Virus record (IMG/VR): IMGVR_UViG_3300008114_000012
Location: 62,001-126,000 of that record
DNA: 64,000 bases
Direction: 5' to 3' (one strand)
Source of the DNA: a virus
Part shown: piece after piece, positions 5,454 to 50,583 of the stretch
How positions within the stretch are numbered: the first letter of the stretch is position 1
How the letters are laid out: each line of letters opens with the position of its first letter
Position numbers and translations under genes: made by a program
Notes under the pieces: generated by a model
The model's database searches: none
Told to the model about the DNA's origin: nothing
The model's input: only the letters and a program-made list of their open reading frames with translations

Positions 5454-7292
5454 ATGGCAAATAAGAAAATATCATATACCACCAGGGATTTTGAAGCAAT
5501 AAGGACCGAACTTATTAATTTTACAAGAACGTATTACCCCGACCTCATTGACAATGTTAATGACGCTGCCGTGTTTTCGGTATTGTTGGATTTGAACGCT
5601 GCGGTAACCGACAACCTCCACTTCAACATAGATAGAAGTATTCAAGAAACAGTATTACAATACGCTCAACAGAGGTCATCAATATATAATATTGCCAGAA
5701 CTTACGGTTTAAAGGTACCAGGACAAAGACCATCAGTTGCGTTAGTTGATTTATCAATTACGGTACCGGCATTCGGAGATAAAGAAGATTTGAGATATTG
5801 CGGTATATTAAGAAGAGGGTCACAAGTTAATGGCGCCGGACAAGTTTTTGAAACTGTATATGACATTGATTTTTCTTCAGCGGTTAATGCTGAAGGTGCA
5901 TCAAACAGGTTGGTAATACCAAATTTTGATTCAAATAATATCCTTATTAATTATACAATCACTAAAAGAGAGACAGTTGTTAACGGTATTACAAAAGTAT
6001 TTAAGAAGGTTATTACACCAAATGATGTGAAACCTTTTTATGAAGTTTTTTTACCTGAAAAAAATGTGTTAGGAGTTACAAGTGTTTTATTAAAAGATGG
6101 AACACAGTATGCAAGTGTACCATCTACCCAAGAATTTTTAGGTTTAGATAATAGATGGTATGAAGTACAAGCACTTGCTCAAGATAGAGTTTTTGTTGAA
6201 GACCCAACTAAAACCGCCGACTCACCTGGTATTAAAGTAGGAAAATATATCACAACTTCTAATAAGTTTATTACCGAATTTACACCTGAAGGTTATATGA
6301 AAATGACCTTTGGAGGAGGAAGTCAATCTGCTGATGAACAATTAAGAGAATTTGCGAGAAACGGGATGAAGTTGGATTTGTATAAATATTCAAACAACTT
6401 TGCTTTGGGTAGTACGTTAAAGTCAAATACAACATTGTTCGTTCAGTATAGAATTGGAGGGGGATTAAGTAGTAATGTCGGTGTTAATGTAATAACACAA
6501 ATAGGAACGGTTTCTTTTTACGTAAATGGTCCATCTTCTTCAGTTAATACGAGTGTTGTTAATTCATTAAAATGTAACAATGTGACGGCGGCCATAGGTG
6601 GTGCGAATATACCAACGGTTGAAGAGGTTAGAAATTTAGTAGGATTTAATTTTGCTGCTCAAAACAGAGCAGTGACTGTAAATGACTATGATTCAATCAT
6701 AAGAACAATGCCGTCACAATTCGGGGCACCGGCTAAAGTGGCGATTACCGAAGAAAATAATAAAATTAAAATTCAAATGTTGGCTTACGATGAGACAGGT
6801 AATCTAACCGAGGTCATCTCAAATACTTTGAAAAATAATGTTGCTAATTATTTGTCTAATTACAGAATGTTGAATGATTACATATCAGTTATGTCGGCAA
6901 ATGTGGTTGACCTTTCAATAATAATTGAAGTTGTATTAGATAGTAGTCAAAATCAAGGAGCTTTAATATCTCAAGTGATTAATATTGTAACAAACTTCTT
7001 TAGTCCATTGAACAGACAGATGGGTGAGAATGTTTATGTTTCAGAATTGAGAAGACAAATTCAGAATGAAAATGGGGTTATTACATTAGCGAATATTACA
7101 TTCTATAATTTGGTTGGAGGTCAATATTCCTCATCTCAAACTTCACAAAGATACTCTGACCCTGAAACAAGACAAATTGAATTAATTGACGATACTTTAT
7201 TTGCGGAACCAAACCAAACTTACCAAATTAGATTTCCCGGTAAGGACATAACAGTTAGAGTAAAGAACTTTAAGTCAGTCAATTTTTCTTGA
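5454..7292 (+). CDS. Baseplate wedge protein, T4 gp6/baseplate J-like
   Basis: This 612-aa protein matches the gp6/baseplate_J family, whose dimers form the ring of the wedge inner core. The N terminus has the family pattern YTTRDFEAIRTELINFTRTY followed by VNDAAVFSVLLDLNAAVTDNL and a helical stretch through ARTYGLKVPGQRPS. The C-terminal half contains RAVTVNDYDSIIRTMPSQFG, a conserved baseplate J feature, and then beta-rich domains. It lies directly after the gp25-like gene, the expected neighbour. T4 gp6 is about 660 aa, so the length fits. Confidence 0.88.
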   Translation: MANKKISYTTRDFEAIRTELINFTRTYYPDLIDNVNDAAVFSVLLDLNAAVTDNLHFNIDRSIQETVLQYAQQRSSIYNIARTYGLKVPGQRPSVALVDLSITVPAFGDKEDLRYCGILRRGSQVNGAGQVFETVYDIDFSSAVNAEGASNRLVIPNFDSNNILINYTITKRETVVNGITKVFKKVITPNDVKPFYEVFLPEKNVLGVTSVLLKDGTQYASVPSTQEFLGLDNRWYEVQALAQDRVFVEDPTKTADSPGIKVGKYITTSNKFITEFTPEGYMKMTFGGGSQSADEQLREFARNGMKLDLYKYSNNFALGSTLKSNTTLFVQYRIGGGLSSNVGVNVITQIGTVSFYVNGPSSSVNTSVVNSLKCNNVTAAIGGANIPTVEEVRNLVGFNFAAQNRAVTVNDYDSIIRTMPSQFGAPAKVAITEENNKIKIQMLAYDETGNLTEVISNTLKNNVANYLSNYRMLNDYISVMSANVVDLSIIIEVVLDSSQNQGALISQVINIVTNFFSPLNRQMGENVYVSELRRQIQNENGVITLANITFYNLVGGQYSSSQTSQRYSDPETRQIELIDDTLFAEPNQTYQIRFPGKDITVRVKNFKSVNFS

Positions 7293-29588: not shown

Positions 29589-30155
29589 TTACCACATTGT
29601 AAAAAGAATAGGGATTTCTTCATCCAAGATAATTGTATCATTATTGGTAACAACATTCTTTGGTTTTACCCAAAAATCTTGGTAATTCTGCACCACTCCA
29701 TTTCTAGCGTATGCGTTGATAACCGGTTTTCCCGTGTTGTATGTTCCCAAAACCTTTTTCCAATCCTTATATTTCTTATAATGTAAAGATAAACACCTCA
29801 TAGACACATATACGTTTAGCTCAATACTATCTTTAAGCTCCTGACGTTTAACAGGAAATCCGGCAAAATAAGAAGCGTATTGTGGCATAATCTGCATGGC
29901 CCCAACCGCACCTGCACTTGAAACTTGTTTATGGTTATAATCTTTATGATGAGGTCCTCGATATCCGGTCTCAATTCTTGCTACGTTGAAAGCAATATGA
30001 ATGGGAATGTTAAATGAGTCGGCGTATAAAATAATTGCCGAATACATTTTTTCGGCATTGTTCTGTGGTTTTGGTTTAATAGGTTTAGTTACCAAAGAGG
30101 CATAAACAATAACAGATAAAAATGTGCCCGCCAATAAATAAGTTAGTTTTTTCAT
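29589..30155 (-). CDS. Secreted lytic transglycosylase (SLT family)
   Basis: This 188-aa protein cleaves the MurNAc-GlcNAc bond of peptidoglycan. An N-terminal hydrophobic signal or anchor (KLTYLLAGTFLSVIVYASLV) is followed by an SLT domain. Glu62 in NVARIETGY is the catalytic acid, GAVGAMQIMP (residues 82-91) is the classic second motif, and TYNTG near 143 is the third. It is the last gene of a leftward four-gene run. The role may be lysis or local wall opening; the export signal argues for action from the periplasm rather than as a virion enzyme. Confidence 0.85.
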   Translation of the reverse strand: MKKLTYLLAGTFLSVIVYASLVTKPIKPKPQNNAEKMYSAIILYADSFNIPIHIAFNVARIETGYRGPHHKDYNHKQVSSAGAVGAMQIMPQYASYFAGFPVKRQELKDSIELNVYVSMRCLSLHYKKYKDWKKVLGTYNTGKPVINAYARNGVVQNYQDFWVKPKNVVTNNDTIILDEEIPILFTMW

Positions 30156-32577: not shown

Positions 32578-34851
32578 ATGGCAGCACCAACAACACCTTG
32601 TGCATATACAACCCTATGCGTCTATGATACAGGATTTCCACAATGGGACGACACCTATACTAGGTCAGGAAGTTATAATGGTAACTACTATTATATAGGT
32701 AATACAAACGGATATGTAATTTTTTTAAGTGATAACGGATGGTGTCTTTCTGATTATATTGATGGACAATGTTTTTTGAGCGGTAAGTCATGTTACAGAA
32801 CTTGTCCTGATTTTTGTGATGATTATTTTACCAACGGAACTTGTCCCCCACCAGAACCCCCACCACCTGTTAACCCTTGTAATATAATTGATTTTGATGC
32901 TATATTCAATTGCGATGTACCATCACCCACACCACCACCTACACCTCAATGTGGTGATAAAATAACAATTTCTGCGACTTCACCAACTTCAACAATTGAA
33001 TTTGAACCTGATACTGATATTGTTTATACTAATCAAGGTACAATATTCCATAGCCCTTTTAATTTTAATGGTACTAGTCCCGGTAATATATATTTGGCGG
33101 TTTCTACAACTCAACCGGTGTGGAAAAGAATTGATTCTACTGATGGGCCATTAAATAGAACTGGATTGTGGACCAATCAACCTAATGATAGACCTTACGA
33201 CACTTGGTTAGGATTTACTGTTTGTATAAATGTTTCTGAAACTAAAACTTATTGGGTTGGATTAGCGGGGGACAATAATTTTAGAATCTCTATTGATGGT
33301 CAAACTATTGTAAATACAATAAGCGGACCTTATGATGGTGATACATTTGCCTTTATTTTTTGGCATGTATATCCAATAACATTAACTGCAGGAGACCATG
33401 TTGTTGAATTATTTGGATTAAATAATGGGGCTTCCGGTGCGTTTGGTTGCGAAATTTATAACAACACTATTGATGAATTGACCGGAGCAACCCAAGTTTC
33501 TGATTTGGATATAATATTCACATCCGCTGGCCAAACAGAGGCGACTATAGTGCAGAATTTATCAGGTCAATATCTGGCCAGTGGATATACATGTCCTGTA
33601 GGATATACTTTTGACCCCTGTACCATTTCATGTTTTACAATTATACCTCCATGTTCCCCAACACCAACTCAAACTCCCACCGCAACAGTATTCTGCCCAT
33701 TATCGGTTAATGCCTCAATTTCGTCTTACACTCCAACACAAACACCAACACCGACCCAAACTCCTACATTACCTGAAACGATTACCCGAGGATGTGGATT
33801 TTTGGGTGACGTTACCTTTAATACTATAAATTCTGTTATAGACTGTCCGGTAAGTTTAGAATTTCAAGATTGTTACAATGGATTAACATATTACACAACT
33901 AATTCACTCTCAAGGCCTGAAGGTGGCACTTTAGAAAAGTTTATGATTTATCAGGCGAATATTGACGGAATAAGAAAGTGTGTTTCTTTCGTCGGTATAA
34001 ACCAAAACATTATAGGAAGTAGTAATGTTACTCTTATCTCTAATTTGATAGGGTATTCTAATTTAGGTGAATGTACTAATTGTTTAGGAATACTTACCCC
34101 GACCCCAACACCAACACCATCAATAACCCCAACAATTACATTAACTTCGTCATCTAATAAACCAGCACCACCGGCACCATCACAAAGCCCAACCGTTACC
34201 CCTTCTAAACAAGTATTATATTATACGTATGAAAGATGTGGTACTTACACAAGAGCTTGTCAACCAATGCCGGCAATCTCAAATCAATCAATAGGTACTG
34301 TATTCAAAGTAGGTAATGCGGGACAATTCGCGAATACTTGTTGGGAGCTAGTTAGTGTAACATCTGTTTGTAATACATCTAACCCTAATTATAATACAAT
34401 CACATATACTACAAACGCATTTTCGATAATCAATAATGTTTTATATACCGACTGTAGTAAGTGCTCATCCAATACACAAACGGCCCCACCCCAACCACCA
34501 CCACCTAGTTTAACGCCTACAAGAACTCCAACACCTACTAAAGCACCACAATCGGCACCAATACAAGCGTGTAAACCCCATACGGTTATAGTATCAACAG
34601 GACCATGTAATATATGTTACCATCCGGCTGTTTCTGCGTTATACCCACTACCTGCCAATACGACTATGTATTCTCCGAGCGACTTTTTAATACCTGGTTC
34701 TCAGTTGTACATAAACTCAACCTGTACAACACCCATACCTCCTTTCCAATACATCAAAGCCCTTTCATCATCAGGAGGTGCAATAACTCCGACTATGATA
34801 TCTTTTGGTGGAGGAATAATAAGTAATTACTCATGTTCGATATGTTATTAG
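32578..34851 (+). CDS. Tail fibre/adhesin protein with PA14/GLEYA-like lectin domain and TP linkers
   Basis: This is a 757-aa protein. The N-terminal 105 residues are Cys- and aromatic-rich and end in a Pro patch (CPPPEPPPPVNPC). Residues about 120-315 resemble a PA14/GLEYA-type carbohydrate-binding domain: KTYWVGLAGDNNFRISIDGQ, then HVYPITLTAGDHVVELFGLN. TP-rich linkers follow ([44 protein letters not shown]). They separate small Cys-containing modules such as CPVSLEFQDCYNGLTYYTTN. The C terminus (CKPHTVIVSTGPCNICYHPA onward) is another Cys-rich module. No signal peptide is present. It probably binds host surface glycans as part of the distal fibre. Confidence 0.7.
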   Translation: MAAPTTPCAYTTLCVYDTGFPQWDDTYTRSGSYNGNYYYIGNTNGYVIFLSDNGWCLSDYIDGQCFLSGKSCYRTCPDFCDDYFTNGTCPPPEPPPPVNPCNIIDFDAIFNCDVPSPTPPPTPQCGDKITISATSPTSTIEFEPDTDIVYTNQGTIFHSPFNFNGTSPGNIYLAVSTTQPVWKRIDSTDGPLNRTGLWTNQPNDRPYDTWLGFTVCINVSETKTYWVGLAGDNNFRISIDGQTIVNTISGPYDGDTFAFIFWHVYPITLTAGDHVVELFGLNNGASGAFGCEIYNNTIDELTGATQVSDLDIIFTSAGQTEATIVQNLSGQYLASGYTCPVGYTFDPCTISCFTIIPPCSPTPTQTPTATVFCPLSVNASISSYTPTQTPTPTQTPTLPETITRGCGFLGDVTFNTINSVIDCPVSLEFQDCYNGLTYYTTNSLSRPEGGTLEKFMIYQANIDGIRKCVSFVGINQNIIGSSNVTLISNLIGYSNLGECTNCLGILTPTPTPTPSITPTITLTSSSNKPAPPAPSQSPTVTPSKQVLYYTYERCGTYTRACQPMPAISNQSIGTVFKVGNAGQFANTCWELVSVTSVCNTSNPNYNTITYTTNAFSIINNVLYTDCSKCSSNTQTAPPQPPPPSLTPTRTPTPTKAPQSAPIQACKPHTVIVSTGPCNICYHPAVSALYPLPANTTMYSPSDFLIPGSQLYINSTCTTPIPPFQYIKALSSSGGAITPTMISFGGGIISNYSCSICY

Positions 34852-34914: not shown

Positions 34915-37900
34915 ATGGATACTATAAGTTTATTTAACATATCGGGTGTTAATCCTCCATTCATAATATACATATGTGATATTTACGGCGATAATTGTGT
35001 CGAAGTTGCTATAGTAAATAACTTTGTTCCCCCGATTATTACACTTAATGTCCCTATAGTTTTCCAAGACTCGGCGGCGGTTGGTGTTAAAATAATAACC
35101 GCGGACGGATGTGAAAGATTAGAAACTGTTTTATGTAGTATTATAACCACCCCAACCCCTACAATATCGATAACACCAACGATTACCCCTACAATCACCC
35201 CAACTATTACTGAAACACCTACAATCACCCCAACTATTAGTATTACCCCAACTATTACCCCGACGGTTACTGAAACACTCACACAAACTCCAACCAATAC
35301 ACAAACTCCAACAATAACTAATACGGAGACACCAACTAATACGGTAACACCAACCTTAACCCCAACACCTACGAATAATGGTTGTTTTTGTTACTTTGTT
35401 GATATTACCCAGTTAGATATCAATAGAGCTAGCGGTAATACTGAAACAACTGCAAATGGTGTTGTTAATTTAGTGTATTATGATTGTTCCGAGGGTATTA
35501 TAACCTCTGCAATTACTGGAAGTGGAATTTATTATATCTGTAACAATCCATCGGAAACTATAGATGGGTTTAGTATTCCGGTACTATTGAATTACAGTCA
35601 AAATAATTTTAGTTATAGTAATGTATTCACACCATTATCATTCTCTAGTACGTTTTTTACAGATTATTCAACTTGTTCACAAAGCGGGGATTGTGTTTTG
35701 CCAAGTAGCACCCCAACACCAACTCCAACCCCTACAGTAACTAATAATGGTTGTTTTTGTTATTTTGTTAATATTTCGGCAATTGATTTAGCAAATGCTA
35801 TAAACAATACCAATCCCTCATTTGATGGTGTTGTAAATATTCTATACATAGATTGTAAAGGGGTACTACAAAGACTTACTATATCTTCTCCTGGTATAAC
35901 TGTTATATGTAACAATGTTCAATCTTCTATTAACTCATTCGGAATAGATGTTTATATAACATATTCTAATAACGATGAGTCTTATAATAATAGAAATGAT
36001 ATAATCCAAAGTTTTTATACCACTGATAATACCAATTGTACTGAGGCTTCTTCATGTGTTCCACCAACCCCTACTTCTACTAAAACACCAACCGCCACCC
36101 CAACAGGTACTGCGACGATAACCCCTACAAATACATTAACTCAAACACAAACACCCACTACAACATCAACATCAACGCAAACACCGACCGCAACACCAAG
36201 TCCATTCCCATCAAGAACTCCAAGTAATAGCCCAACACCCACAGTAACACCAACTGTAACACCATCACTAACTGTTTCAGGTTTCCCAACAGAAACGCCA
36301 ACCTCGACCCAAACACCTACCGTTACTCCAACAGTGACCCAAACACCCACTAATACTTTAACATCAACACCAACAGTTACTGAAACCCCGACCAATACTG
36401 TCACACAGACTCTGAGTCCAACTAGTACCGTAACATCAACATCAACTCAAACACAAACTCAAACTCCTACAGAAACAGTTACTAATACCCCTACAGTGAC
36501 TCAAACACAAACTCAAACTGTTACAATCACAGAAAGCCCAACGAATACCCCCACAATAACTGAAAGCCCAACAAATACCCCAACAATCACATCAACTCCT
36601 ACTGAAACATCTACTCCGACATCTACCAATACTAATACTCCGACCAGTACGAGTACATTAACAGTGACCCCAACAACAACTCAAACTGTCGCATCTACTA
36701 ATACACCAACACAGACACCTACCGCAACTGTTACTGAAACTCAAACACCAACGCCAACTAATACTAACACATCAACACCTACTAATACTAACACATCAAC
36801 ACCTACTAATACTGTAACCGTAACTGAAACTAAAACACCAACGCCAACCAAAACACCAATTAATTGTAATTGTATTGAGTTTTTCGCCGCTGCGGGTGGA
36901 GCTGTTATATCTTATAATAAATGTGATGGAACTTCAGTTACTAATTTATTCGTACCTGGAGGGTCTACGGTTAAGGATTGTATTATAAATGAAGAATATA
37001 CAATAACATCTGGTGTAATAGTAACTAATTTTGGTTCATGTATCGACAATTCATGTCCTACTCCGACACCAACACCTACCACCACCGAGACCCCAACAAA
37101 TACGGTAACACCAACTCCGACCACTACTGAAACTCCGACTAGTACAGAGACCCCAACAAATACCGTTACCCCAACTCCGACTATAACAGTCACTCCAACT
37201 AAAACTGAATTTAAACCTCTAAACTTATGGTTTAGTGGTTGTTGTCAACCAGGACAAATCATTCAATTATATGAAGTTCCTGGTGAAATAGGTCAAACCA
37301 TAATTGAAGGAGATGTTTATTATATTGAATCACCACAGTTCAAGGGATGCGCGACTAATATAGCTCAAACTCTAACGGATTTACAATACTTGTATTTGAA
37401 TATTACTAATCAATTCACTTGCCAAGATTGTATAGATTCAAATCCTTGTCCAACATCTACACCTACTCCGACACCAACCGAAACTCCAACTCAAACACCA
37501 ACTCAAACACCAACTACAACTCAAACGCCAACCGAAACAAATACCCCAACAGTAACTCAAACACAAACAAGTACAATCACTAGTACTCCAACAAACACGG
37601 TTACTAATACTCAAACTCAAACAGTTACACAGACAGTGACTGTTACTGAAACGATAACAAGTACTCCTACTCAAACAAATACAACAACTAATACTCCAAC
37701 TCAAACCAGTACAGTTACCAACACATCGACCCCAACATCAACAGAGACATCTACGCCTACGCCAACCAACACTACAACATCTACACCTACAACAACAGAA
37801 ACACCCACACCTACCCCAACACCAACGACAACACAAACACCAACCATAACCTCAACTTCAACACAAACACCAACAGTCACACCAACTAATACTATTACCG

Positions 37901-39360
37901 TTACGCCTTCAACAATATTCTGTGTTGACTGTGTTGAATCAGGTTACACATATGTATTCAGTTGTGCTCCAACACCTTCTATCACTAAAACGCCAAGTGT
38001 TACCCCAACGATAACCTACACACCGACAGTCACCCCAACCAATACAAGTACCCCAACAAAAACACCTACCCCAACTCAAACTAATACTGTAACTGTAACA
38101 ATAACTAAAACTTCGACACCTACAAACACAACAACTGTTACTAACACTACAACACAGACACCAACACCAACTGAAACACCGACCGCAACGGTGACTAGTA
38201 CACAAACACCAACTGTAACAGTTACTAGTACTTCTACACAAACACCAACGAATACTCAAACACCTACTACTACACAAACACCAACCCCATCAATTACTGA
38301 ATATAAGCCATCATTCAGACACTTTAGTGCATGTTGTTCTCCACATATAGTATTCAGAGTTTATGAGATACCTGGATTGACAGCCACAACCATTGTTGAA
38401 GGTAATATTTACTATATTGAGACAGGTGTGTTCAGTGGTTGTGCAACAAGTATTGCCGAAGTATTTACACCAAATAATTATTTGTTTGTTGGTGTGACGG
38501 CCCAAACTGATTGTGATGAATGTACGTTCTCAAATCCATGTCCGACACCAACCCCTACGCAAACCCCTACACAAACAGAAACTCCAACACAAACCCCAAC
38601 ACCGACACAAACTCAAACATCTAGCCCTACTAACACCCCAACTTTAACACCTACCCCAACTAAAACTCCGGCGCCAACTTGTGATTTGATTGTTACTTTG
38701 GTGAATACCGAATCAATTAGTTCAAATACTGAAATTAATATTTGGTATGATGATTCAGGCTCTATGGGGTCTACACGAGCTCCTTTGGAGCAAATGATTG
38801 CACCTGGTGGAATACTTGAAACTTGTTTGATAGGTGTTTATAACAATGATATTACGTTATATAATGAGAGAGTTCAATTCTTCACAATGCAAACTGGCCC
38901 ATTAGGTAATGTAAATGAAAGATTTGTTGCGTGTTTAGCAACTTCGAGAAATGCTGGAAGAGCAGTTGATACTAGCGTTGATTTAGTAATCAATTTGGTT
39001 TTCCAAGACGAGAGTGGTGGAGCGTATGTTACAGGTGGAACTTTTACGCCTACAACTGTATTAGACCCGGATTATGGGACTGACGTTACAACTTTGAGAA
39101 ACCTCTTATCTTCAATTGATTATGGATTAAGAGGTGTTGTATTTGCGGTAATAAATGAGGGACAACCTACCTTCCAAGACTTGGTACAAACAACTTTTGT
39201 AAATGCGGGAATATATTCACCACCTAACAACTTAAGTGATTATTACTTGACCAATTTAAACTACCAATTAGGTATAAACGATGGAGATACTTCGACTTAT
39301 TATTATAATTTGATAATCTCCACACTTAATTCTTTGGGTATCGTAACACCGGGATGTTGA
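34915..39360 (+). CDS. Giant modular fibre/adhesin with Pro/Thr linkers and C-terminal VWA-like domain
   Basis: This is a 1481-aa modular protein. Residues 1-75 are an Ig-like cap shared with the gene at 32361. Two related modules start [12 protein letters not shown] (about 157) and [12 protein letters not shown] (about 280). A smaller CNCIEFF module sits near 651. Two GCC/ACC-type modules, [14 protein letters not shown] (about 766) and [15 protein letters not shown] (about 1130), flank a short [15 protein letters not shown] unit (about 1002). All are joined by mucin-like TPTxTxT linkers. The last 225 residues look like a von Willebrand A domain: [10 protein letters not shown] contains the D-x-S-x-S MIDAS motif (Asp1279, Ser1281, Ser1283), a metal-dependent ligand-binding site. 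No signal peptide is present. It is probably a long receptor-binding fibre. Confidence 0.75.
36757..36814 (+). repeat. 24-bp tandem repeat in Pro/Thr linker
   Basis: ACTAATACTAACACATCAAC plus ACCT occurs twice perfectly (36757-36780 and 36781-36804) and begins a third copy. It encodes an 8-residue TNTNTSTP unit. Perfect identity amid codon-diverse neighbours points to recent slippage or unequal recombination. Confidence 0.85.
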
Positions 39361-39373
39361 TATATATAAAGGG

Positions 39374-39517
39374 ATGCCAACAGCACTAATACAATCGGTA
39401 AATTATGCGGGACAATATGGGGATATAACATTCAATCCCCAAACCGGCGGCACCGCTTTAGTGTTTGCTGTGAATTCAATTTACTTGCACCTACACCGAC
39501 CCCTACCGCAACAATAA
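39374..39517 (+). pseudogene. Probable 5' end of the giant fibre gene, separated by a frameshift
   Basis: ATG at 39374 follows a TATATATAAAGGG leader and encodes 47 residues beginning MPTALIQSVNYAGQYGDITF, then NPQTGGTALVF, before a stop at 39515-39517. This looks like the start of a fibre protein. In the -1 frame the DNA is open from 39370 through 50583, and within the overlap it reads CCEFNLLAPTPTPTATITKT, a Cys patch leading into a TP linker. One extra base near the TTT at 39462-39464 would join the two frames into VFCCEFNLLAPTPT. The cause may be a sequencing or assembly indel, a real mutation, or a programmed -1 shift. No canonical slippery heptamer is obvious. Confidence 0.6.
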
Positions 39518-39591
39518 CTAAAACGCCTACCATAACTCCAACTGAAACTGTAACTCCCACAAAAACACCAACTCCGACAATAACCCCCACA

Positions 39592-42500
39592 ATGACCATG
39601 ACTCCAACCCCATCAACAATATTCTGTGTTGATTGTGTTGAGTCAGGTTATACGTATGTCTTCAGTTGTGCCCCAACTCCATCTATAACAAGAACGCCAA
39701 GTGTTACACCAACAATTACTTATACACCTACTCAAACATCAACTAAAACTCCTACTCAAACACCAACGACGACTCAAACACCAACAATTACCAAGACATC
39801 AACTCAAACACCAACAATTACCAAGACATCAACCCCAACTAGAACGCTTACTCCAACAGGAACTAATCCTCCATCTGTTCCCGAATGTGCGGTAATATTT
39901 AATTCATTACAAAATGTATTTTTCTATGATGTTGACACGGACACTACTACACAACTTATAGTTCCTGACACAGTTGGTTCCGCGACAAATGATATTGCCC
40001 ATACTTCAAGTAAGTTGTGGATGGCTAGTGCCAGTGAGATATACGAATGGGATATTACTTTGAGTCCGTTTACCGCGGTATTTAATCGTGTAATTACATT
40101 ACCATCAGGCATAGGTCCTGGGTTGGGGGCAATTAATAACACAACCTTGATTGCGGTCCAAAGCGGGGGTAATCCAAAACAGGTTGTTTCGGTAAATATT
40201 ACTACAAATACTGCGGTATTTAAAACTCTATTCCCAATGTTGATAAACAGAGGTGTTGCGGGAGATATTATTTTAACAACAACAAATAAGGTTATTATTA
40301 CGACTAACGCGACCGCGGCACCATTCGGACAATTCATAACACAATATAATTTCTTAAATGGTGACCCTGAAGTCGATATTCAATTGAATCCAACCATCAC
40401 CCAGCCTTGGGGCATTTTTCAAGATAATGGTGAAATTTATATCATGGATGGTAACGAAACTAATAATGTATTCCATATTGATAAAAATTATCCGTACACA
40501 ATTACATTAACAGGTGATACAGGATATTCGGTGTATGGGGCTTCTCAATTACCAAATTGTTTAGATGTAAACTTCATACCTCAAATAACACCAACACCAA
40601 CCCAAACACCAACCCAAACTCCTACAACGACCCAAACACCAACAGTAACTGTAACTGAAACAATTACTAATACCCCAACTAATACCCCAACCCCAACTAA
40701 GACACCCGTGTCCTGTGACTGTTTTGAAATAACCGCGGTTGGGAATAATGCGGTTATTGACTATTTTAAATGTGGTAGTGAAGGGGTTTCGGTAAGAAAA
40801 TTAATAGAACCTGCAAGACCATTTAAAGTTTGTTTAGAAAATAGTGGAGTTACTACTCTTTCAGGGGTAACTCAAATTAGTAATTTTGGTCCTTGTATTG
40901 ACGGAGAATGTGCTAGCCCAACCCCAACTCCTACAGTCACCCAAACACCAACAAATACATTAACACCTACAATTACCCCAACAAATACATTAACACCTAC
41001 AATTACCCCAACTGAAACCCAAACTCCCACAATTACCTCAACTAGTACTCAAACCCCAACTAGTACTCAAACTATAACTCCTACACTTACCCAAAGTCCA
41101 ACACCAACAGTAACTCTTACTAATACCGTGACACCAACAATTACTGAAACACCAACAAGTACGGCAACACAAACACCAACAACTACCACAACCCAAACCC
41201 CAACAAGTACAGAAACACCAACCACAACCCAAACTCCAACAAGTACACAAACACCTACCACAACCCAAACTCCAACCACAACCCAAACTCCAACAAATAC
41301 AATGACTGTAACTCCGACTCCGGTTTGTATAGACGGATGTTCAGTTTTATATGTCGATAGTGAATCATTAATTTATTCTTATGACTATAATACAGAAACG
41401 TCTACAGTAATTTTTGACCCCAAGGCAACAGTAAGAGATATTGCTAACACTAGCTCAAGGTTATTCATTACTATCGTAAATAGAATTCAAAGATACAGTT
41501 TTTCAACTTGCCCTGTGAGTGTTACATTAATTGATGAAATAACTAGACTTTTCTTGGGTGATGGTTTATTTGCAATAAATGATACCACATTAATTATAAC
41601 TAGTACACAAGCAATTGGTCAAGAAAACGTACAAGAATTAAACTATATAACAAATACAGTAACCCCTAAATTCTCACTACCAACCGGTTATTCGGTAAGA
41701 GGTGATTTTATTCTAACAACCGGCGGAAAATTCATAGTTTCAATGTTCCAAGGATTGAGTAACTATATTTTACAATATGACTATTCAACTGGTGAACAAG
41801 AAGTTTTATTCCAAGTTTCTCAAATTATTGCCGGATTCTTTGAATTTGGTGGAAATATCTATGCTGTGGATACTTCAGGTATTGTTTATCAAGCAATTTT
41901 AGATTCTCCATGGGGGTTAGTTTCTACAACTTTAGACCCATTAACTTTTACAGGGGTTATTAAAGGTACATCCCAAGAGTTATCGTGTTTACCTACAAAT
42001 TTTAACATAGTAACCCCAACCCCAACTCCTACCCAAACCCCAACTCCTACTGTCACCGTTACCGAAACACCTACTATGACGGTAACTGAAACTCCGACTC
42101 AAACGGAAACTCCGACTCAAACCCCAACCAATACTGAAACACCTACACAAACTTCTACCCCAACACCAACACCTACTTTAGATTGTTTTTGTTACACATT
42201 TGTAAACACCAGTTTATTAGACAAACAAAATGTAAGTGGTAAAGATTGTAATAATATAAATTTTGAGTACTCATTACAAATTTCAGGTTCTGAAGGTGAC
42301 ACCGTAAGTTTATGTGCGTCATCAAGTTTAGTTTTAGACCCATTTATTGCGGTATTCAATAACGGAGTTTGCGAAGGATTTTGTGGCACCTCAACACCAA
42401 CACCAACACCGACAGAGACTCCCACACCAACCATTACTGACACTCCTACACAAACCCCAACAATTACCGAAACAAACACACAAACCCCAACTCAAACTCC

Positions 42501-45500
42501 AACAAACACTGTTACAGAAACATCCACATCAACACCGACCCCAACTCAAACTGAAACACCGACAAATACTGTAACCTCTACTCCAACAAATACAGTAACC
42601 TCTACCCCAACGATAACATCTACATCAACTCAAACTCCAACGGTTACATCAACTCCAACTCCATCAATTACCGAGTACAAGCCAGCTATAAGAACATTTA
42701 GTGGATGTTGTTTCCCATTTGAAATTTTTAAACTTTATGAAATACCTGGATTAACCGCTAACACAATAACTGAAGGTACAGTTTACTACATTGAATCCGG
42801 TGTATTTAGCGGTTGTGCTACAAACATTGCCGAAACATTCACACAAAATAATTATCTATTTGTTAATATTAGTGCCCAAACTAGTTGTAGCGGTTGTTCG
42901 GCATCCTACCCATGCCCGAGCTCAACCCCGACACCTACTGTAACATCAACACCAACAGTTACTCCAACGATTACCTCGACTCCAACGATTACCTCGACCC
43001 CAACTCAAACTGAAACCCCAACTCAAACTGAAACCCCAACTCAGACACAAACTTCAACAGTAACATCAACACCTACAGAAAGCCCAACTTCGACACAAAC
43101 TCAAACTCAGACACAAACTCAAACTGTAACACCAACAAAAACGTCAACCCCAACAAGAACACCTATTGAGTGTGTTTGTTATTCTATAACCAATATAGGT
43201 GAATTTTTTGGTAGTTATAACGGAATTTTATGTAATGGTGGACCTTCAGGAGGAATACCAATAGGTCCTGGTGTAACATTTACCGCATGTTATGCTAAAG
43301 GGTCACTTCAAACTGTGGGAGGTACTTTAACATTTCTTGAGAATGGGTCTTGTGAGAACTCAATACTTTGTCCTACTAGAACTCCGACTCCTACAAGAAC
43401 TGGTACCCCGACCCCGACTCCTACAACTACTGAAACACCTACAAATACCGTAACGCCAACTACGACAACTACTGAAACACCGACTAGTACATCAACACAA
43501 ACACCAAGTGTAACCAACACTATAACATCAACACCTACTCAAACATTGTGTTGTACCTCATGGACACTATATGGAGGTTTAGGTCAATTACTCGATAATG
43601 GATTTGTTATTAAACCTCCTTTGAGGGTAGGGGATGATTTTGCATTGATACCTACAAATGTAGGCTCACCTGGTACTTTAGTTGGTCAAGTTTTGGAACT
43701 AATCAGTGTTAGCCCTCCACTATCGCCCCAATATTTTACAATTTTAACTGCTACGTTTAACCCTATAAATTCGGCCTACTTATTAACATTTACCCCTACT
43801 TTAACAATTAATTTGGGTAGTACCTTCCAGAGTATAATTTATAACATTTATCAGTCAGGAGGTACACAATTCAATGTTTACAATTGTGGAGGGTCTCTTA
43901 CGACTTTGAATTTGAATAACAATGAAATATTGGTCATTCCTTGTTCCTATGATGTTCAGGTTATATCAGGATTCGGGTATGCTGAGTCTGACCCATCATG
44001 TGTATGTGTCACTCAAACTCCAACACCAACATTGACACCTACTGTGACATCAACAATAACTCAAACCCCAACAAATACAGTAACCGTTACTCAATATACT
44101 TGTAATTGTTATTTTATAAATGTGCCAGACATTAGAGATGGAGTAAATTTAGTATTTTTAGATTGTTTGGGTAGTTTGATTTCAATAGCACCAAATAATT
44201 TTGGAAATTATTGTGTTAGAGAAATAATTGATTATGGTTCAGGTACCGCCGAACTTGTAGGACTATGTATAGATGGAAATTGTCCAACACCAACGCCAAC
44301 TCCAACTCAAACCGAAACCCCAACCCCAACTGAAACTCCAACCCAAACAATTACCCAAACTCCAACTGTTACTCAGACCTCGACACCAACTGTTACTCAG
44401 ACCTCGACACCAACTGTTACTATCACGGAATCGGCTACACAAACTCAAACACCAACACCGACTGAAACTCCAACTAATACTTTAACACCGACTGTGACAA
44501 TTACTGAATCTGTTACGCCAACAAGGACATTAACACCAACCAAAACTCAGGCACCATGTTTATCTAGCTGTGATGTGTTGTTATTAGACAATGTCGGTAG
44601 AGTTTATATATACAATTCAGTCACTAACTCTCCACTGTACTTAGGTATTGATGGTCCTGATGGTTCCTTCGATATTGCACATACAAATAACAAAATATGG
44701 TTAAATAGAGGAACTTCATTATATGAATATGATATAATATTATGTCCGTTCTCGGCGACATTCAGCAGAGAAATTTCAGGTTCAACGGCATTTAGTGCTG
44801 GATTATTTGCAATAAATGACACTACTTTAATTGCTAATAATGGAGCGACCCCTTCTTCAATTTTAGAGATTGATGTTTCGACTAATCCTTACACAGTTAC
44901 AACAAAATTCTCTTTATTACCAGGAAGAAGAGTTTCAGGTGATTATGTTCTAACAAATTCAGGTAAGTTAATTGTTAGTAATTTTTCGGGAACAAACCCA
45001 AATGCACCCACTGGTGTTTACATAACACAATATAACTATATAACTTCGGCAACACCCCCTGTAGATAACAATGTTGATATATTAATATCCCCAACAATTG
45101 TATTCCCATATGGGTTATATCAATATGGAGGTGGTTTCTATATTCTGAGTGCGAATGGTACACAATATACTTTAGACCTAAATCCTCCGTACACACTTAC
45201 CGCGGCACCTACAGTTCCTTTACCTCCAAATACAATCAACGCCGCATATTTTGGTGCATCCCAATCCAACGGATGTTTCGACAATAACATAGTACCTGTG
45301 TCACCAACACCAACCTCAACTCCAACCCCGACCCCTACCCCAACTGCAACAATAACACAAACCCCAACTATAACACAGACTTCAACACCTACACCAACAA
45401 TAACTTCTACAGTAACACAGACTCCAACCCAAACTCAAACACCAACTTCAACAATTACTGTTACACCAACTCAAACAAGTACGGTTACATCAACCCCAAC

Positions 45501-48500
45501 TGTTACATCAACCCCGACACCAACCATAACTGAATACAAGCCGGCAATTAGAACGTTTAGTGGATGTTGTTTCCCATTTGAAACCTTTAAGATTTTCGAA
45601 ATACCTGGATTAACCGCAAATTCAATAACTGAAGGCACGGTTTATTACATTGAGTCCGTAGGATTTAGTGGATGTGCGACAAACATTGCAGAGACATTCA
45701 CTCAAAACAATTACCTATTTGTTAACTTGAGTGCTCAAACAAGTTGTAGTGGTTGCTCGACAAATTACCCATGTCCAAGCTCAACACCAACACCTACAGT
45801 TACATCGACTCCTACATTAACGCCAACGCAAACCCAAACACCAACGCAAACCCAAACACCAACTGAGACATCCACTCAAACACCAACTGAGACATCCACT
45901 CAAACACCAACCCAAACTCAAACTTCAACACAAACACCGACTAATACACAAACATCAACCAACACCCCTACCACAACAGTAACACCAACTTTGACACGTA
46001 CTCCTGATACTTGTAATTGCTACACATTCTTTAACATATCAACTTCACAAAGTTTGACTGTAGATTTTATTGATTGTACAGGCTTACAAAACCAAATTAC
46101 AATAAATTACGGAAATAGTGCTCAAGTTTGTGTTAAAAATAATATTTTCTCGGGTACCCCATCAGGGGCTTTAGTATCATTCTTAAATGGTGATTGTACA
46201 AATGGATGTCCGACAACTACCATACAAGCTTGTAACCCATTTGTAGTGAATGGAACAAATAGAATTATTTATACTTATGACCCAATAACTAACACACAAA
46301 TTCCATTACCTATTAATACCGAATCTGTTTCTATATACGATATTGCAACAAATGATAACTATTTATGGATATATGGTAATTTCGCAACATTAGGAAATGG
46401 TATAAAAGAATATTTTATAACAACATCCCCATTTACATCAAGTTTAAATAGATTTATATCGGGTTCTACACTATATCAATCCACAAGAAATGGTTTAGCG
46501 GTTTTAAATAACACCACATTAATAACGGCTTCAGGTACGGCTGGTAATGTGATAGTGAGTTTAAATATTTCATCAAATACTTGGGTTGCAACTCCGTTAT
46601 TTACTTTACCAACAAATAGAGTCCTAAGGGGTGATTTAACTTATACAAACACAGGTAATATTATTGCGTTAACTTATAATAATGTTGCGGGTACCGGGTC
46701 TTTTTTAACACAGTTTGATTTATTTGGTAATCAGGAATTAGAATTCCAAATAGGTAATTCTGTTGAAGGATTTGGTTTGTTCATGTATAATTCACAAATA
46801 TTTACGGTTGCCTCTTCATCGGCGTCTCCCGCTGTAGTTAGAAGAGATTTGAACTTCCCCTATACATCTTTAACAGTAAACAATATGACAATAACAAATG
46901 TTGGGTTTGCCCAACCGTTAAGTTGTTTAAATGTTAATTTCATAGGAGTTACCCGAACACCAACACAAACCCCAACACCTACCCCAACACCTACTACCAC
47001 TAAAACTAATACGCCTACATCAACGCAAACCCAAACCCAAACTCCAACTAGAACCTCAACCCCAACAAACACCCAAACTCCTACTATTACAAGTACCTCC
47101 ACAATTACTCCTACCGTTACAAGAACCGCCACAATTACTCCTACCGTTACAAGAACATCAACGATTACTCCTACCGTTACAAGAACATCAACAATTACTC
47201 CAACAATAACACAAACGGCAACCCAAACGAATACCCCAACAGTAACACAAACGGCAACTGTTACACAAACTGCAACTCAAACTCCTACACCTACCGAAAC
47301 TTCTAATCTGTTTGCTTGTACTTGTTATAATTTCTTCAACACATCAAATAACCAACCCGGAACAGTTACTTATTATAATTGTGATGGGGTATTTAGTTCT
47401 GTAACGGTTAGTGCCACTTCATATGTTCAATTATGTGTTTCAGGTAATTCAACAAATCCATTATACACCGCAACGACCCAAATTACTGCTATAGATGAGT
47501 TAGGTGATTGTACAGTAAGTTGCCCAACAATTAATTTGGATAGTTGTATTTCCTTTTTAGCTGGGGGGCCGGGTAACATCATTCAATCATATGATTTTCA
47601 AACTAATACCACAACTTTTTTACCCATACCAAATAGACCATGGTCAATGCTTGGAATTGCAAATACTTCAAATAAACTTTGGGTTCACGGTACTTATCTT
47701 GGTTTCACCAGTGGAGGTATAAGAGAATGGGATATAACATTTTCACCGTTTAGTGCAACATATAATGGCAGAACTATAAACATACAAAGTAATACTATAT
47801 TACCTAATAGTAATGCATGTGGTTTAGTTGCAATCGATAATTTTAATTTATTAAGTGTGTCAGGTGCTACTGCAGGGTCCCAAAGTGTGGTTAATGTTGA
47901 TATTTCAGATACCATAACCAATAACGCGGTATTTACGAAACTTTTTGATTTACCAAGTAATAGAAGAATATTAACTGATTTAGTTTTTACTCAAACTGGT
48001 AAGATTATAATAATGACCCAAACAACTACCCCTGTCAAAATATTTATTACTCAATATGATATACTTGGAAACATTGAGGTTGATGTTCCATTATTCACAT
48101 CAGGAATAGATGCAAATAGTGGATGGTCTATTTTGATTAATTCTAATAATTTGTATATTGTAAGAGCTACTACTCCTGGAGAAATTTATCAGGTAAACTT
48201 AACTTCACCATATTCGGCAACCTTACTTTCTGAAAGTTTACCAGTTACTGTGACGGACCAATCCCAATCACCAGAGTGTATCACAGTTGAGTTTATACCT
48301 GTTACAAAAACACCGACTCCAACACCTACTAAAACTCCAACACCTACCGTGACTATGACGATAACGCCAACTTCAGGTGCAACAGAAACACGGACTCCGA
48401 CGCCGACTACCACTCAAACTTCAACACCAACAATAACATCTACGATTACTCCGACAATAACGGCAACACCAACAAGAACGGCGACTCAAACACCAACAAT

Positions 48501-50583
48501 AACAAGAACGGCGACTCAAACACCAACAATAACAAGAACGGCGACTCAAACACCGACAATAACAAGAACGGCGACTCAAACACCGACAAGAACTGCGACA
48601 CCAACAAGAACACCAACTAGAACGGCAACAAATACTCCATCGATTACCCCAACCATAAGTATAACTCCAACAATAACCTCAAATTTACCATGTAAATGTT
48701 TTAATTTTTACAATACAAGTGATACGGTAAATGGTACTCTTATATACACTGCTTGTAATTTAACAGTTAGTTCTACAACGGTATCGGCTAATTCATTTGT
48801 ACAATTGTGTGTAAATTTAAGCGGATATAGTGGGTCATCACAAATAACATTTGTTAACCAAGTTGGTTCATGTGTAAATGGTTTTTGTCCTAACATATCT
48901 ATAAATTCTTGTGATTTGTTATCGGTTAAAAAAGAACCTTCTGGTCCGACTAATGGTCTTTGGCAGATTATGAGTATTAGAAACGAAAGTCTTTTGTATT
49001 TGCCGGTTTCTGGTAGAACTGTAGGAACCAACGCTTTAGCGAGAACGTCTAATAAAGTTTGGGTACTAGGATTTTTTACGGCATTAGGTGGTTCTAGAAT
49101 AAGGGAATACTCAATTACCCAAAATCCTTGGTCTGCGGTGGTGACTAATAACTATACATTACCGACAAATTTGCCGTCTGTTATCGACAATGGTATGGCG
49201 GCAATCGATGATGAGAATTTTATTGTTGGGTCCGGAACTGCATTGAATGTTATTGCAAAATTAAATGTTTCAGGTGGAATTTTATCATCTACTAAAATTA
49301 TAGATTTAATATCACCATTTACGGTTTTTGGTGACATGATTTATACTACAACCAATAAAGTCATAGTTGCGGTTAAAAATACAATTAATACTAACATATG
49401 GCAAATTCACCAATATGATGTTAATGGGACTTTTGAACTGGCGGTAGACGTTTCATCTATATCTTTATTTAATTCCGGAATAAATTTCGCGGTAGTTAAT
49501 AACCAATTATATTTATTACCACATAATCAAACATATAATAATTATTATTTAATTAATTTAAATAATCCTTACAATACCACAATTCAGTCGGCTCTTGGAG
49601 GTAGTGCCCCAAATGACGTTGCTCAAAATCCTGAATGTATTAATATTCAGTTTATCCCTTCTACACAGACACCAACACCAACAAGAACAAAAACTCCGAC
49701 ACCAACAAGAACTCCAACAAGAAGTGCAACACCAACAAGAACTCCAACAAGAAGTGCAACACCAACAAGAACACCAACAATAACCATGAGTCCGTCGATT
49801 ACACCAAGTCGAACAGTAACAATGACACCTTCATCTATTGGTATCTATACTCAACCATTGATGGTAAGTTTTTCTGGAACATCTACTGTAATATCAAGAT
49901 ACGATGTAACAACAAATACTATTACAACTTTAGATGTACAAAGTTCCGGTATTTTACCAAATCAAGATATTGCATGTACTCAAAATAAATTTTGGTTATC
50001 AAATCAGGGGTCTGGTAACATAATAAAAGAATATACTTATACCGCGTCACCTTTCAATTATGTGTTGAATAGAACTTTGAATATACCAGTTACATTGACT
50101 GATGGATTAACTGTAAGGACTGTGGGAGGTATTGAATATTTGATTGGATGTACAGGTAATACAACTATTGTTGAAATGGATATATCATCAACAACGGCCA
50201 TAGTTACCGATAAATTTGATTTACCTCTTAACAGAACCATAGGTGCTGATATGATGTATACTAATACTGGAAAATTAATAGTTGCCAACTATTCAGGTGG
50301 TAATACAACAGTCGGATTTATGACGCAGTATAACTATGAAACAAATACTTTAGAGATTGATAGGGCATTACCAACTACTTATGCTGCTGGCGGTCAAAAA
50401 GTTTATTTTGTATCTAATAATAATATCTATAGTACTAGTATCTCTGCTAGTCTTTCGGTTGTTTATCAATGGAATACAGATAGTAATATTAACAATCCAC
50501 TTCCATTACAATCCTTCGAGTTACCACTACTTCGTGGAAGCGCTCAACCACAAGAATTCATAAACATTAATTTCACCTCATAA
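39592..50583 (+). CDS. Giant fibre/adhesin with seven beta-propeller-like modules and Pro/Thr linkers
   Basis: This is a 3663-aa protein from the first in-frame ATG; coding clearly extends upstream (see 39374). Seven modules of about 230-260 aa lie at about residues 95-328, 581-806, 1655-1902, 2213-2450, 2651-2900, 3106-3355 and 3418-3663. They share IAHTSSKLW, (E/R)(E/W)(W/Y)DITLSPFTA, AINDTTLI and a GDxxxTxxGKxI motif. The short periodic strands suggest a beta-propeller. Between them sit small Cys modules (C-x-C-Y/F-x-F type, about 65 aa), two CCFPFE modules and a unique CCTSWTLYG domain near 1320. TP-rich linkers join them all. It lacks a signal peptide. It probably forms a very long flexible fibre for multivalent surface binding. 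Internal 24- and 30-bp repeats show ongoing expansion. Confidence 0.75.
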   Translation: MTMTPTPSTIFCVDCVESGYTYVFSCAPTPSITRTPSVTPTITYTPTQTSTKTPTQTPTTTQTPTITKTSTQTPTITKTSTPTRTLTPTGTNPPSVPECAVIFNSLQNVFFYDVDTDTTTQLIVPDTVGSATNDIAHTSSKLWMASASEIYEWDITLSPFTAVFNRVITLPSGIGPGLGAINNTTLIAVQSGGNPKQVVSVNITTNTAVFKTLFPMLINRGVAGDIILTTTNKVIITTNATAAPFGQFITQYNFLNGDPEVDIQLNPTITQPWGIFQDNGEIYIMDGNETNNVFHIDKNYPYTITLTGDTGYSVYGASQLPNCLDVNFIPQITPTPTQTPTQTPTTTQTPTVTVTETITNTPTNTPTPTKTPVSCDCFEITAVGNNAVIDYFKCGSEGVSVRKLIEPARPFKVCLENSGVTTLSGVTQISNFGPCIDGECASPTPTPTVTQTPTNTLTPTITPTNTLTPTITPTETQTPTITSTSTQTPTSTQTITPTLTQSPTPTVTLTNTVTPTITETPTSTATQTPTTTTTQTPTSTETPTTTQTPTSTQTPTTTQTPTTTQTPTNTMTVTPTPVCIDGCSVLYVDSESLIYSYDYNTETSTVIFDPKATVRDIANTSSRLFITIVNRIQRYSFSTCPVSVTLIDEITRLFLGDGLFAINDTTLIITSTQAIGQENVQELNYITNTVTPKFSLPTGYSVRGDFILTTGGKFIVSMFQGLSNYILQYDYSTGEQEVLFQVSQIIAGFFEFGGNIYAVDTSGIVYQAILDSPWGLVSTTLDPLTFTGVIKGTSQELSCLPTNFNIVTPTPTPTQTPTPTVTVTETPTMTVTETPTQTETPTQTPTNTETPTQTSTPTPTPTLDCFCYTFVNTSLLDKQNVSGKDCNNINFEYSLQISGSEGDTVSLCASSSLVLDPFIAVFNNGVCEGFCGTSTPTPTPTETPTPTITDTPTQTPTITETNTQTPTQTPTNTVTETSTSTPTPTQTETPTNTVTSTPTNTVTSTPTITSTSTQTPTVTSTPTPSITEYKPAIRTFSGCCFPFEIFKLYEIPGLTANTITEGTVYYIESGVFSGCATNIAETFTQNNYLFVNISAQTSCSGCSASYPCPSSTPTPTVTSTPTVTPTITSTPTITSTPTQTETPTQTETPTQTQTSTVTSTPTESPTSTQTQTQTQTQTVTPTKTSTPTRTPIECVCYSITNIGEFFGSYNGILCNGGPSGGIPIGPGVTFTACYAKGSLQTVGGTLTFLENGSCENSILCPTRTPTPTRTGTPTPTPTTTETPTNTVTPTTTTTETPTSTSTQTPSVTNTITSTPTQTLCCTSWTLYGGLGQLLDNGFVIKPPLRVGDDFALIPTNVGSPGTLVGQVLELISVSPPLSPQYFTILTATFNPINSAYLLTFTPTLTINLGSTFQSIIYNIYQSGGTQFNVYNCGGSLTTLNLNNNEILVIPCSYDVQVISGFGYAESDPSCVCVTQTPTPTLTPTVTSTITQTPTNTVTVTQYTCNCYFINVPDIRDGVNLVFLDCLGSLISIAPNNFGNYCVREIIDYGSGTAELVGLCIDGNCPTPTPTPTQTETPTPTETPTQTITQTPTVTQTSTPTVTQTSTPTVTITESATQTQTPTPTETPTNTLTPTVTITESVTPTRTLTPTKTQAPCLSSCDVLLLDNVGRVYIYNSVTNSPLYLGIDGPDGSFDIAHTNNKIWLNRGTSLYEYDIILCPFSATFSREISGSTAFSAGLFAINDTTLIANNGATPSSILEIDVSTNPYTVTTKFSLLPGRRVSGDYVLTNSGKLIVSNFSGTNPNAPTGVYITQYNYITSATPPVDNNVDILISPTIVFPYGLYQYGGGFYILSANGTQYTLDLNPPYTLTAAPTVPLPPNTINAAYFGASQSNGCFDNNIVPVSPTPTSTPTPTPTPTATITQTPTITQTSTPTPTITSTVTQTPTQTQTPTSTITVTPTQTSTVTSTPTVTSTPTPTITEYKPAIRTFSGCCFPFETFKIFEIPGLTANSITEGTVYYIESVGFSGCATNIAETFTQNNYLFVNLSAQTSCSGCSTNYPCPSSTPTPTVTSTPTLTPTQTQTPTQTQTPTETSTQTPTETSTQTPTQTQTSTQTPTNTQTSTNTPTTTVTPTLTRTPDTCNCYTFFNISTSQSLTVDFIDCTGLQNQITINYGNSAQVCVKNNIFSGTPSGALVSFLNGDCTNGCPTTTIQACNPFVVNGTNRIIYTYDPITNTQIPLPINTESVSIYDIATNDNYLWIYGNFATLGNGIKEYFITTSPFTSSLNRFISGSTLYQSTRNGLAVLNNTTLITASGTAGNVIVSLNISSNTWVATPLFTLPTNRVLRGDLTYTNTGNIIALTYNNVAGTGSFLTQFDLFGNQELEFQIGNSVEGFGLFMYNSQIFTVASSSASPAVVRRDLNFPYTSLTVNNMTITNVGFAQPLSCLNVNFIGVTRTPTQTPTPTPTPTTTKTNTPTSTQTQTQTPTRTSTPTNTQTPTITSTSTITPTVTRTATITPTVTRTSTITPTVTRTSTITPTITQTATQTNTPTVTQTATVTQTATQTPTPTETSNLFACTCYNFFNTSNNQPGTVTYYNCDGVFSSVTVSATSYVQLCVSGNSTNPLYTATTQITAIDELGDCTVSCPTINLDSCISFLAGGPGNIIQSYDFQTNTTTFLPIPNRPWSMLGIANTSNKLWVHGTYLGFTSGGIREWDITFSPFSATYNGRTINIQSNTILPNSNACGLVAIDNFNLLSVSGATAGSQSVVNVDISDTITNNAVFTKLFDLPSNRRILTDLVFTQTGKIIIMTQTTTPVKIFITQYDILGNIEVDVPLFTSGIDANSGWSILINSNNLYIVRATTPGEIYQVNLTSPYSATLLSESLPVTVTDQSQSPECITVEFIPVTKTPTPTPTKTPTPTVTMTITPTSGATETRTPTPTTTQTSTPTITSTITPTITATPTRTATQTPTITRTATQTPTITRTATQTPTITRTATQTPTRTATPTRTPTRTATNTPSITPTISITPTITSNLPCKCFNFYNTSDTVNGTLIYTACNLTVSSTTVSANSFVQLCVNLSGYSGSSQITFVNQVGSCVNGFCPNISINSCDLLSVKKEPSGPTNGLWQIMSIRNESLLYLPVSGRTVGTNALARTSNKVWVLGFFTALGGSRIREYSITQNPWSAVVTNNYTLPTNLPSVIDNGMAAIDDENFIVGSGTALNVIAKLNVSGGILSSTKIIDLISPFTVFGDMIYTTTNKVIVAVKNTINTNIWQIHQYDVNGTFELAVDVSSISLFNSGINFAVVNNQLYLLPHNQTYNNYYLINLNNPYNTTIQSALGGSAPNDVAQNPECINIQFIPSTQTPTPTRTKTPTPTRTPTRSATPTRTPTRSATPTRTPTITMSPSITPSRTVTMTPSSIGIYTQPLMVSFSGTSTVISRYDVTTNTITTLDVQSSGILPNQDIACTQNKFWLSNQGSGNIIKEYTYTASPFNYVLNRTLNIPVTLTDGLTVRTVGGIEYLIGCTGNTTIVEMDISSTTAIVTDKFDLPLNRTIGADMMYTNTGKLIVANYSGGNTTVGFMTQYNYETNTLEIDRALPTTYAAGGQKVYFVSNNNIYSTSISASLSVVYQWNTDSNINNPLPLQSFELPLLRGSAQPQEFININFTS
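40951..41010 (+). repeat. 30-bp tandem duplication in linker
   Basis: A 30-bp unit encoding TNTLTPTITP occurs twice, perfectly, at 40951-40980 and 40981-41010. The surrounding linker uses many different Thr and Pro codons, so this pair is a recent duplication. Confidence 0.9.
44368..44415 (+). repeat. 24-bp tandem duplication in linker
   Basis: Two perfect copies of a 24-bp unit (44368-44391 and 44392-44415) encode VTQTSTPT twice; a third partial copy follows. Confidence 0.88.
45861..45908 (+). repeat. 24-bp tandem duplication in linker
   Basis: Two perfect copies of AACTGAGACATCCACTCAAA plus CACC (45861-45884, 45885-45908) encode TETSTQTP units. Just upstream an 18-bp CCAACGCAAACCCAAACA unit is also doubled. 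Confidence 0.88.
47101..47220 (+). repeat. 30-bp tandem repeat array in linker
   Basis: Four 30-bp units (47101, 47131, 47161, 47191) encode TITPTVTRTA/S; the first three are nearly identical and the fourth is diverged. A more distant copy precedes at 47071. Confidence 0.9.
48481..48600 (+). repeat. 30-bp tandem repeat array in linker
   Basis: Units at 48481 and 48511 are identical, 48541 differs by one base, and 48571 is diverged at its end. The encoded unit is ATQTPTITRT. This is the cleanest array in the window. There are no spacers, so it is not a CRISPR. Confidence 0.92.
49701..49770 (+). repeat. 30-bp tandem repeat in last linker
   Basis: Two perfect 30-bp copies (49701-49730, 49731-49760) and ten bases of a third encode TPTRTPTRSA units just before the final propeller-like module. 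Confidence 0.9.

Follow-up and report, generated by a model that had tools for sequence, protein, structure and literature searches.

Gene and protein organization

The window (the whole 64,000-nucleotide stretch of IMG/VR record IMGVR_UViG_3300008114_000012 analyzed here) carries, on its plus strand and with an ATG start, an open reading frame for a 1481-aa protein. TP-rich linkers make up 46% of this protein and separate an N-terminal module of 74 aa, five Cys modules belonging to three families, and a C-terminal domain. An earlier note on this DNA had pointed to long TP linkers and Cys modules ahead of a C-terminal part containing a D-x-S-x-S motif at Asp1279-Ser1283, and both features are indeed there; the motif reads D1279-D-S1281-G-S1283-M. 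The features of the locus, including those that we predict within the protein, are as follows.

5454..7292, plus strand: baseplate wedge protein, which anchors the tail module (PHROG 219, E 4e-23)
32578..34851, plus strand: TP/Cys protein of 757 aa, upstream in the same gene cluster
34915..39360, plus strand: TP-linker/Cys-module protein of 1481 aa with a predicted C-terminal VWA domain
34915..35136, plus strand: N-terminal module of ~74 aa, candidate virion anchor
35383..36057, plus strand: a pair of related Cys modules at residues 157-260 and 280-381, with a TP linker between them
36865..37056, plus strand: Cys module (residues 651-714) with a relative at residues 375-440 of the downstream 3663-aa ORF
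37222..37449, plus strand: Cys module (residues 770-845), of the family that also includes residues 1134-1209 and occurs twice in the downstream ORF
38314..38541, plus strand: Cys module (residues 1134-1209)
38701..39357, plus strand: predicted VWA-type domain at the extreme C terminus, about residues 1263-1481 (AlphaFold2 model, family alignment, and fold matches)
38749..38763, plus strand: predicted MIDAS motif D1279-x-S1281-x-S1283 at the end of strand 1 (sequence, AlphaFold2 model, and alignment)
38917..38919, plus strand: E1335, at the N terminus of a short helix, in the putative canonical MIDAS Thr slot (conservation and spacing to D1365)
39007..39012, plus strand: D1365-E1366, directly after strand 4, with D1365 as the putative MIDAS Asp
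39592..50583, plus strand: downstream TP/Cys/repeat protein, 3663 aa in the window's reading and about 3.8 k aa in a 322-kb contig

The same coding region occurs in three more IMG/VR contigs besides the window. Since one of these, the 322-kb contig (G020), matches the window at 99.97 to 99.99% across the stretch of the gene, the gene is not an artifact of a single assembly. No signal peptide was seen in the N-terminal module of ~74 aa.

The downstream ORF contains about seven related ~230-aa repeat modules as well as TP linkers, and it has Cys modules in common with the 1481-aa protein; on this sequence evidence, its product is probably a very large fiber protein. Its apparent start is doubtful, because the 322-kb contig has 79 extra bases relative to the window in the interval 39455-39592 and opens the gene differently, with MPTALIQSVNYAGQYGDITFNPQTGG. 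The position read as the start in the window is probably not the real one and would reflect a deletion or an assembly collapse.

A domain family in uncultured phages

The C-terminal 230 aa of the protein gave no Pfam, PHROG, or PDB sequence match. Neither of the Pfam VWA families PF00092 and PF13519 matched any of 13 members of the family described below, even at an E value of 1, and a tblastn search with five members (that of the window and four relatives) against 50,697 described phage records also returned no match. Scans of IMG/VR, in turn, recovered 48 relatives and then two more (L112 and L136), for about 50 contigs, and a scan of a genome collection added one relative, a 1575-aa protein in a Verrucomicrobia metagenome-assembled genome (MAG). 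As judged from these searches, the C-terminal ~215 aa constitute an uncatalogued family found mostly in contigs of uncultured phages. Our family alignment holds 36 members, nearly all of them 29 to 57% identical to its first row. The ORF stops no more than about 17 aa past the domain in 28 of 37 distinct relatives. One large phage contig, the L112 record (G031, 339794 bp), carries two copies of the domain ~31 kb apart.

Genomic context

Because a Gp23 match was found in the 322-kb contig (E 1e-64) and contractile sheath matches were found in both that contig and the window's record, the virus is T4-like, as the earlier note had implied. The gene lies downstream of the baseplate genes, which is a tail-module position; the baseplate wedge protein most resembles those of a 484-kb uncultured phage and of Flavobacterium phage immuto. 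In immuto, tail fiber and tail spike genes lie ~10 kb beyond the baseplate genes, and the window's ORF at 26580 has a weak C-terminal match to immuto gp106, which is encoded two genes before the annotated tail fiber. The N-terminal 134 aa of the 26580 ORF had no match among described phages. Tail genes also accompany several of the relatives: L005 adjoins tail-collar/collagen fiber genes, L042 precedes a tape measure gene by 3.6 kb, and L019 has a tail fiber match nearby.

SprB repeats (Pfam PF13573), together with a Hoc-like stretch, occur in two large neighboring ORFs of the structural cluster (20560-24048 and 24079-26553), and the repeats hint at a Bacteroidetes host. Between two blocks of fiber genes lies a transglycosylase-like gene (29589-30155, minus strand), together with exonuclease and primase genes.

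Predicted fold

AlphaFold2 was run on the window domain with a 13-row alignment (pTM 0.83) and on the compact relative L042 with an alignment of 36 rows (pLDDT 91.5, pTM 0.88). The window model runs from strand 1 through helices, strand 2, a short helix, strand 4, a helix, strand 5, a helix, and strand 6 to a final helix, and DSSP applied to both models, which were built from different query sequences, gave b1-a-b2-a-b4-a-b5-a-b6-a, the Rossmann-like VWA order. The core on which the VWA call of the earlier note depended is therefore predicted. The antiparallel edge strand 3 of standard VWA domains was not seen in the models.

The window model matched a viral protein at 27% identity (TMq 0.75) and a protein of Virus NIOZ-UU157 that UniProt names as VWFA (TMq 0.57, probability 1.00); against the PDB it had no significant match. 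VWA folds lead the PDB list of the L042 model, with integrin beta-2 at the top (probability 0.99, E 1.3e-3, TMq 0.47), the RGLG2 VWA domain second (probability 0.93), and the SpaC pilus adhesin further down (probability 0.72). Since all TM-scores to solved VWA domains stay below 0.5, the domain is a divergent one. A profile comparison of the kind that the earlier note had suggested reached the motif and nothing beyond it: when the family was compared with 28 bacterial VWA domains by HHalign, the alignment took in just the 16-residue D-x-S-x-S stretch, with a probability of 4%. Taken as a whole, the models support a VWA-type fold, albeit a divergent one, for the C-terminal domain, and at the level of the fold the VWA call of the earlier note is right.

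A predicted MIDAS with glutamate in the threonine slot

The Asp that opens the D-x-S-x-S motif lies at the end of strand 1, with the motif in the loop between strand 1 and helix 1. The motif is kept in 33 of the 36 aligned members, and the acidic residues downstream of it are the same each time, which argues that it is not a chance occurrence. In all 33 of these intact members, E1335, D1365, and E1366 are invariant. The earlier note had called for a check on where the Thr and the Asp of the MIDAS lie. The Asp is where it should be, as D1365 after strand 4; the Thr is not, and its place appears to be taken by E1335, which sits just before the short helix in the window model and at the equivalent place in the L042 model. 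The spacing from E1335 to D1365 across the family is 25 to 41 residues (median, 25), close to the Thr-to-Asp spacing of 28 to 36 in bacterial VWA domains. We considered T1343 as the MIDAS Thr and rejected it on both conservation and spacing: it is Thr in just 20 of the 33 intact members, and its column lies a median of 17 residues from D1365, which is too close. The alignment thus supports the prediction that Glu fills the canonical Thr slot, as it does in integrin beta-I domains, and that the acidic and serine residues form a complete, co-conserved MIDAS-type site; judged by sequence position and DSSP, they are consistent with clustering in space.

Three aligned members (L014, L017, and L036) lack D-x-S-x-S; two of them have the Glu replaced by Asn, and one has lost the Asp. 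That the motif and the Glu/Asp are lost together supports a single functional site. L014, L015, L017, L018, and L036 form a clade of longer proteins (~1200 aa) in which the domain is kept and D-x-S-x-S is lost, and we regard these, from their sequences, as natural metal-less variants.

The phage domain shares with the Pfam VWA families (PF00092 and PF13519) the D-x-S-x-S at the end of strand 1 and the Asp after strand 4, but differs from them in having Glu for Thr and DE for DG, as well as in its lack of a visible strand 3 and of any profile match. The integrin beta-I domain (beta-2; PDB 7usl) is the best solved-structure match of the L042 model and has a D-x-S-x-S plus Glu plus Asp site; however, identity is ~11%, the TM-score is 0.47, the phage domain has fewer strands, and it is found in phages. 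The site of integrin beta-3 comprises Ser121, Ser123, Glu220, and Asp251; the neighboring SyMBS ion shares Glu220, a residue that stabilizes the MIDAS ion (PMC3792891).

Sequence change within the domain

When close relatives are compared as eight disjoint pairs, 29.8% of sites vary in the loops of the presumed metal face, against 19.0% in the loops opposite and 15.7% in helices plus strands (top versus bottom, p=0.003), with loops defined from one model and relatedness not fully controlled. Fastest change in these loops fits a ligand-binding face. Between the window and relative L023, the VWA domain is 70% identical, the Cys modules are 39 to 62% identical, and the N-terminal module is 66% identical. 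Higher conservation of the VWA domain than of the Cys modules would be unusual for a tip that sets host range, and it counts against such a role.

Discussion

Our best explanation, to which we give an even chance, is that the 1481-aa protein is a tail-fiber-like adhesin of this giant aquatic T4-like phage with a divalent-cation-dependent tip. The short N-terminal module would anchor the protein to the virion, and the long TP linkers and Cys modules would act as a flexible, extended shaft that holds the C-terminal VWA-type domain far from the virion. There, a MIDAS of the integrin beta-I type, made up of D1279, S1281, S1283, E1335, and D1365 with Glu in the Thr slot, would hold a divalent cation. 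This cation would in turn bind the host surface through an acidic group, supplied by Asp/Glu of a protein or by an acidic glycan, and bridging of this sort would make adsorption cation dependent. Good support exists for the predicted VWA-type fold, for the five site residues being kept and lost as a set, for the C-terminal position of the domain, for the tail-gene surroundings, and for the metal-face loops changing fastest. We infer the fiber-tip location and receptor binding from the position of the gene, its neighbors, and the evolution of the loops, and we likewise infer metal binding, an acidic ligand, incorporation into the virion, and a role of the domain in host recognition. Against this explanation stand the low TM-scores to solved VWA domains, the lack of a significant PDB match for the window model, the profile alignment limited to the motif, the unseen strand 3, and the clade that is apparently metal-less yet retains the domain.

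The main rival, which we consider unlikely but the most serious of the alternatives, is that the VWA domain serves in assembly or docking. Its MIDAS would then bind an acidic peptide of another tail protein, at a fiber-to-fiber, whisker, or collar joint, and host contact would fall to other modules, such as those of the neighboring 3.7-kaa protein. No domain is better conserved between the window and L023 than the VWA domain, which speaks for docking, as does its persistence without a metal site in L014-L018 and L036. In small marine contigs, moreover, the gene lies between head-completion-like genes and the tape measure, not with distal fibers, and MoxR-linked vWA proteins have been proposed as aids to virion assembly in jumbo phages (PMC7824862). 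However, the domain is at the C-terminal end in most members and the metal-face loops are the ones that change faster, and no MoxR-type ATPase gene was recognized among the window genes scanned.

We hold it improbable that the VWA-like fold is a structural cap alone, in which the acidic and serine residues hold the fold together or coordinate a structural cation buried inside it and have no role toward a ligand. The persistence of metal-less members in one clade would suit a cap, and elsewhere in the domain T, N, M, L, and Y residues are as well conserved as the site itself; the site residues, on the other hand, occupy MIDAS-like loop positions and are both conserved together and lost together. 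Least credible is another Rossmann-like fold (SGNH/GDSL hydrolase, HAD, or caspase-like) with a coincidental DDSGS, since the low-probability Foldseek matches of the models to SGNH hydrolases, caspases, and G proteins are countered by VWA folds ranking top among the PDB matches, by a MIDAS pattern that matches in order and roughly in spacing, and by the lack of any His among the conserved columns, which leaves no SGNH or caspase dyad and led us to reject a hydrolase reading.

A broader and more tentative possibility, which we hold to be a little short of even, is that this uncatalogued family of integrin-beta-I-like MIDAS domains is a mobile receptor-binding tip module common to T4-like, collagen-fiber, and tape-measure-bearing tailed phages of aquatic bacteria. 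Adsorption would proceed through one divalent cation bridging to acidic host groups, with the metal site switched off in some lineages. To our knowledge, the need of many phages for Mg2+ or Ca2+ in adsorption is mostly unexplained at the residue level. The family offers a five-residue prediction for cation-dependent adsorption, with natural metal-less versions for comparison, and may represent a way for phages to grip bacteria. Few phage adhesion folds are known, and the family would contribute another, a VWA/MIDAS module that Pfam and PHROGs miss; with it, unannotated tail proteins of aquatic phages can be named.

What we describe is a predicted integrin-beta-I-like variant of the MIDAS in a phage tail-module protein, for which VWA domains in extracellular contractile injection systems (eCIS) are a precedent. 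In the eBAP4 group of eCIS, VWA domains are associated with the fibers of these phage-tail-derived contractile particles (PMC12923769). Those domains, unlike the phage family, are recognizable by Pfam, and they belong to other fibers, in extracellular injection systems; beyond this catalogue, our literature search found no phage tail fiber with a VWA tip. SpaC (PDB 6m48) is a bacterial surface adhesin among the fold matches, but it is a secreted Gram-positive pilin for which we found no sequence relation to the phage domain. Phages also encode intracellular VWA/MIDAS proteins, namely, CobT, the MoxR-vWA cochaperone, and TerF (PMC8651126, PMC7911831, and PMC7824862); these are described as AAA+ ATPase partners or as cobaltochelatase or Ter components, not as fiber tips.

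The single relative from the genome collection bears on a possible cellular origin of the domain, and a second genome carrying it was not found among 289 genomes of the phylum Verrucomicrobia. The MAG protein (L050, 2208-6935) combines eight Ig-like (He_PIG) matches with the VWA-type domain and an FGE-sulfatase domain, and by eye its hydrophobic N terminus resembles a signal peptide. The adjoining minus-strand ORFs, again by eye, resemble flagellar rod genes.
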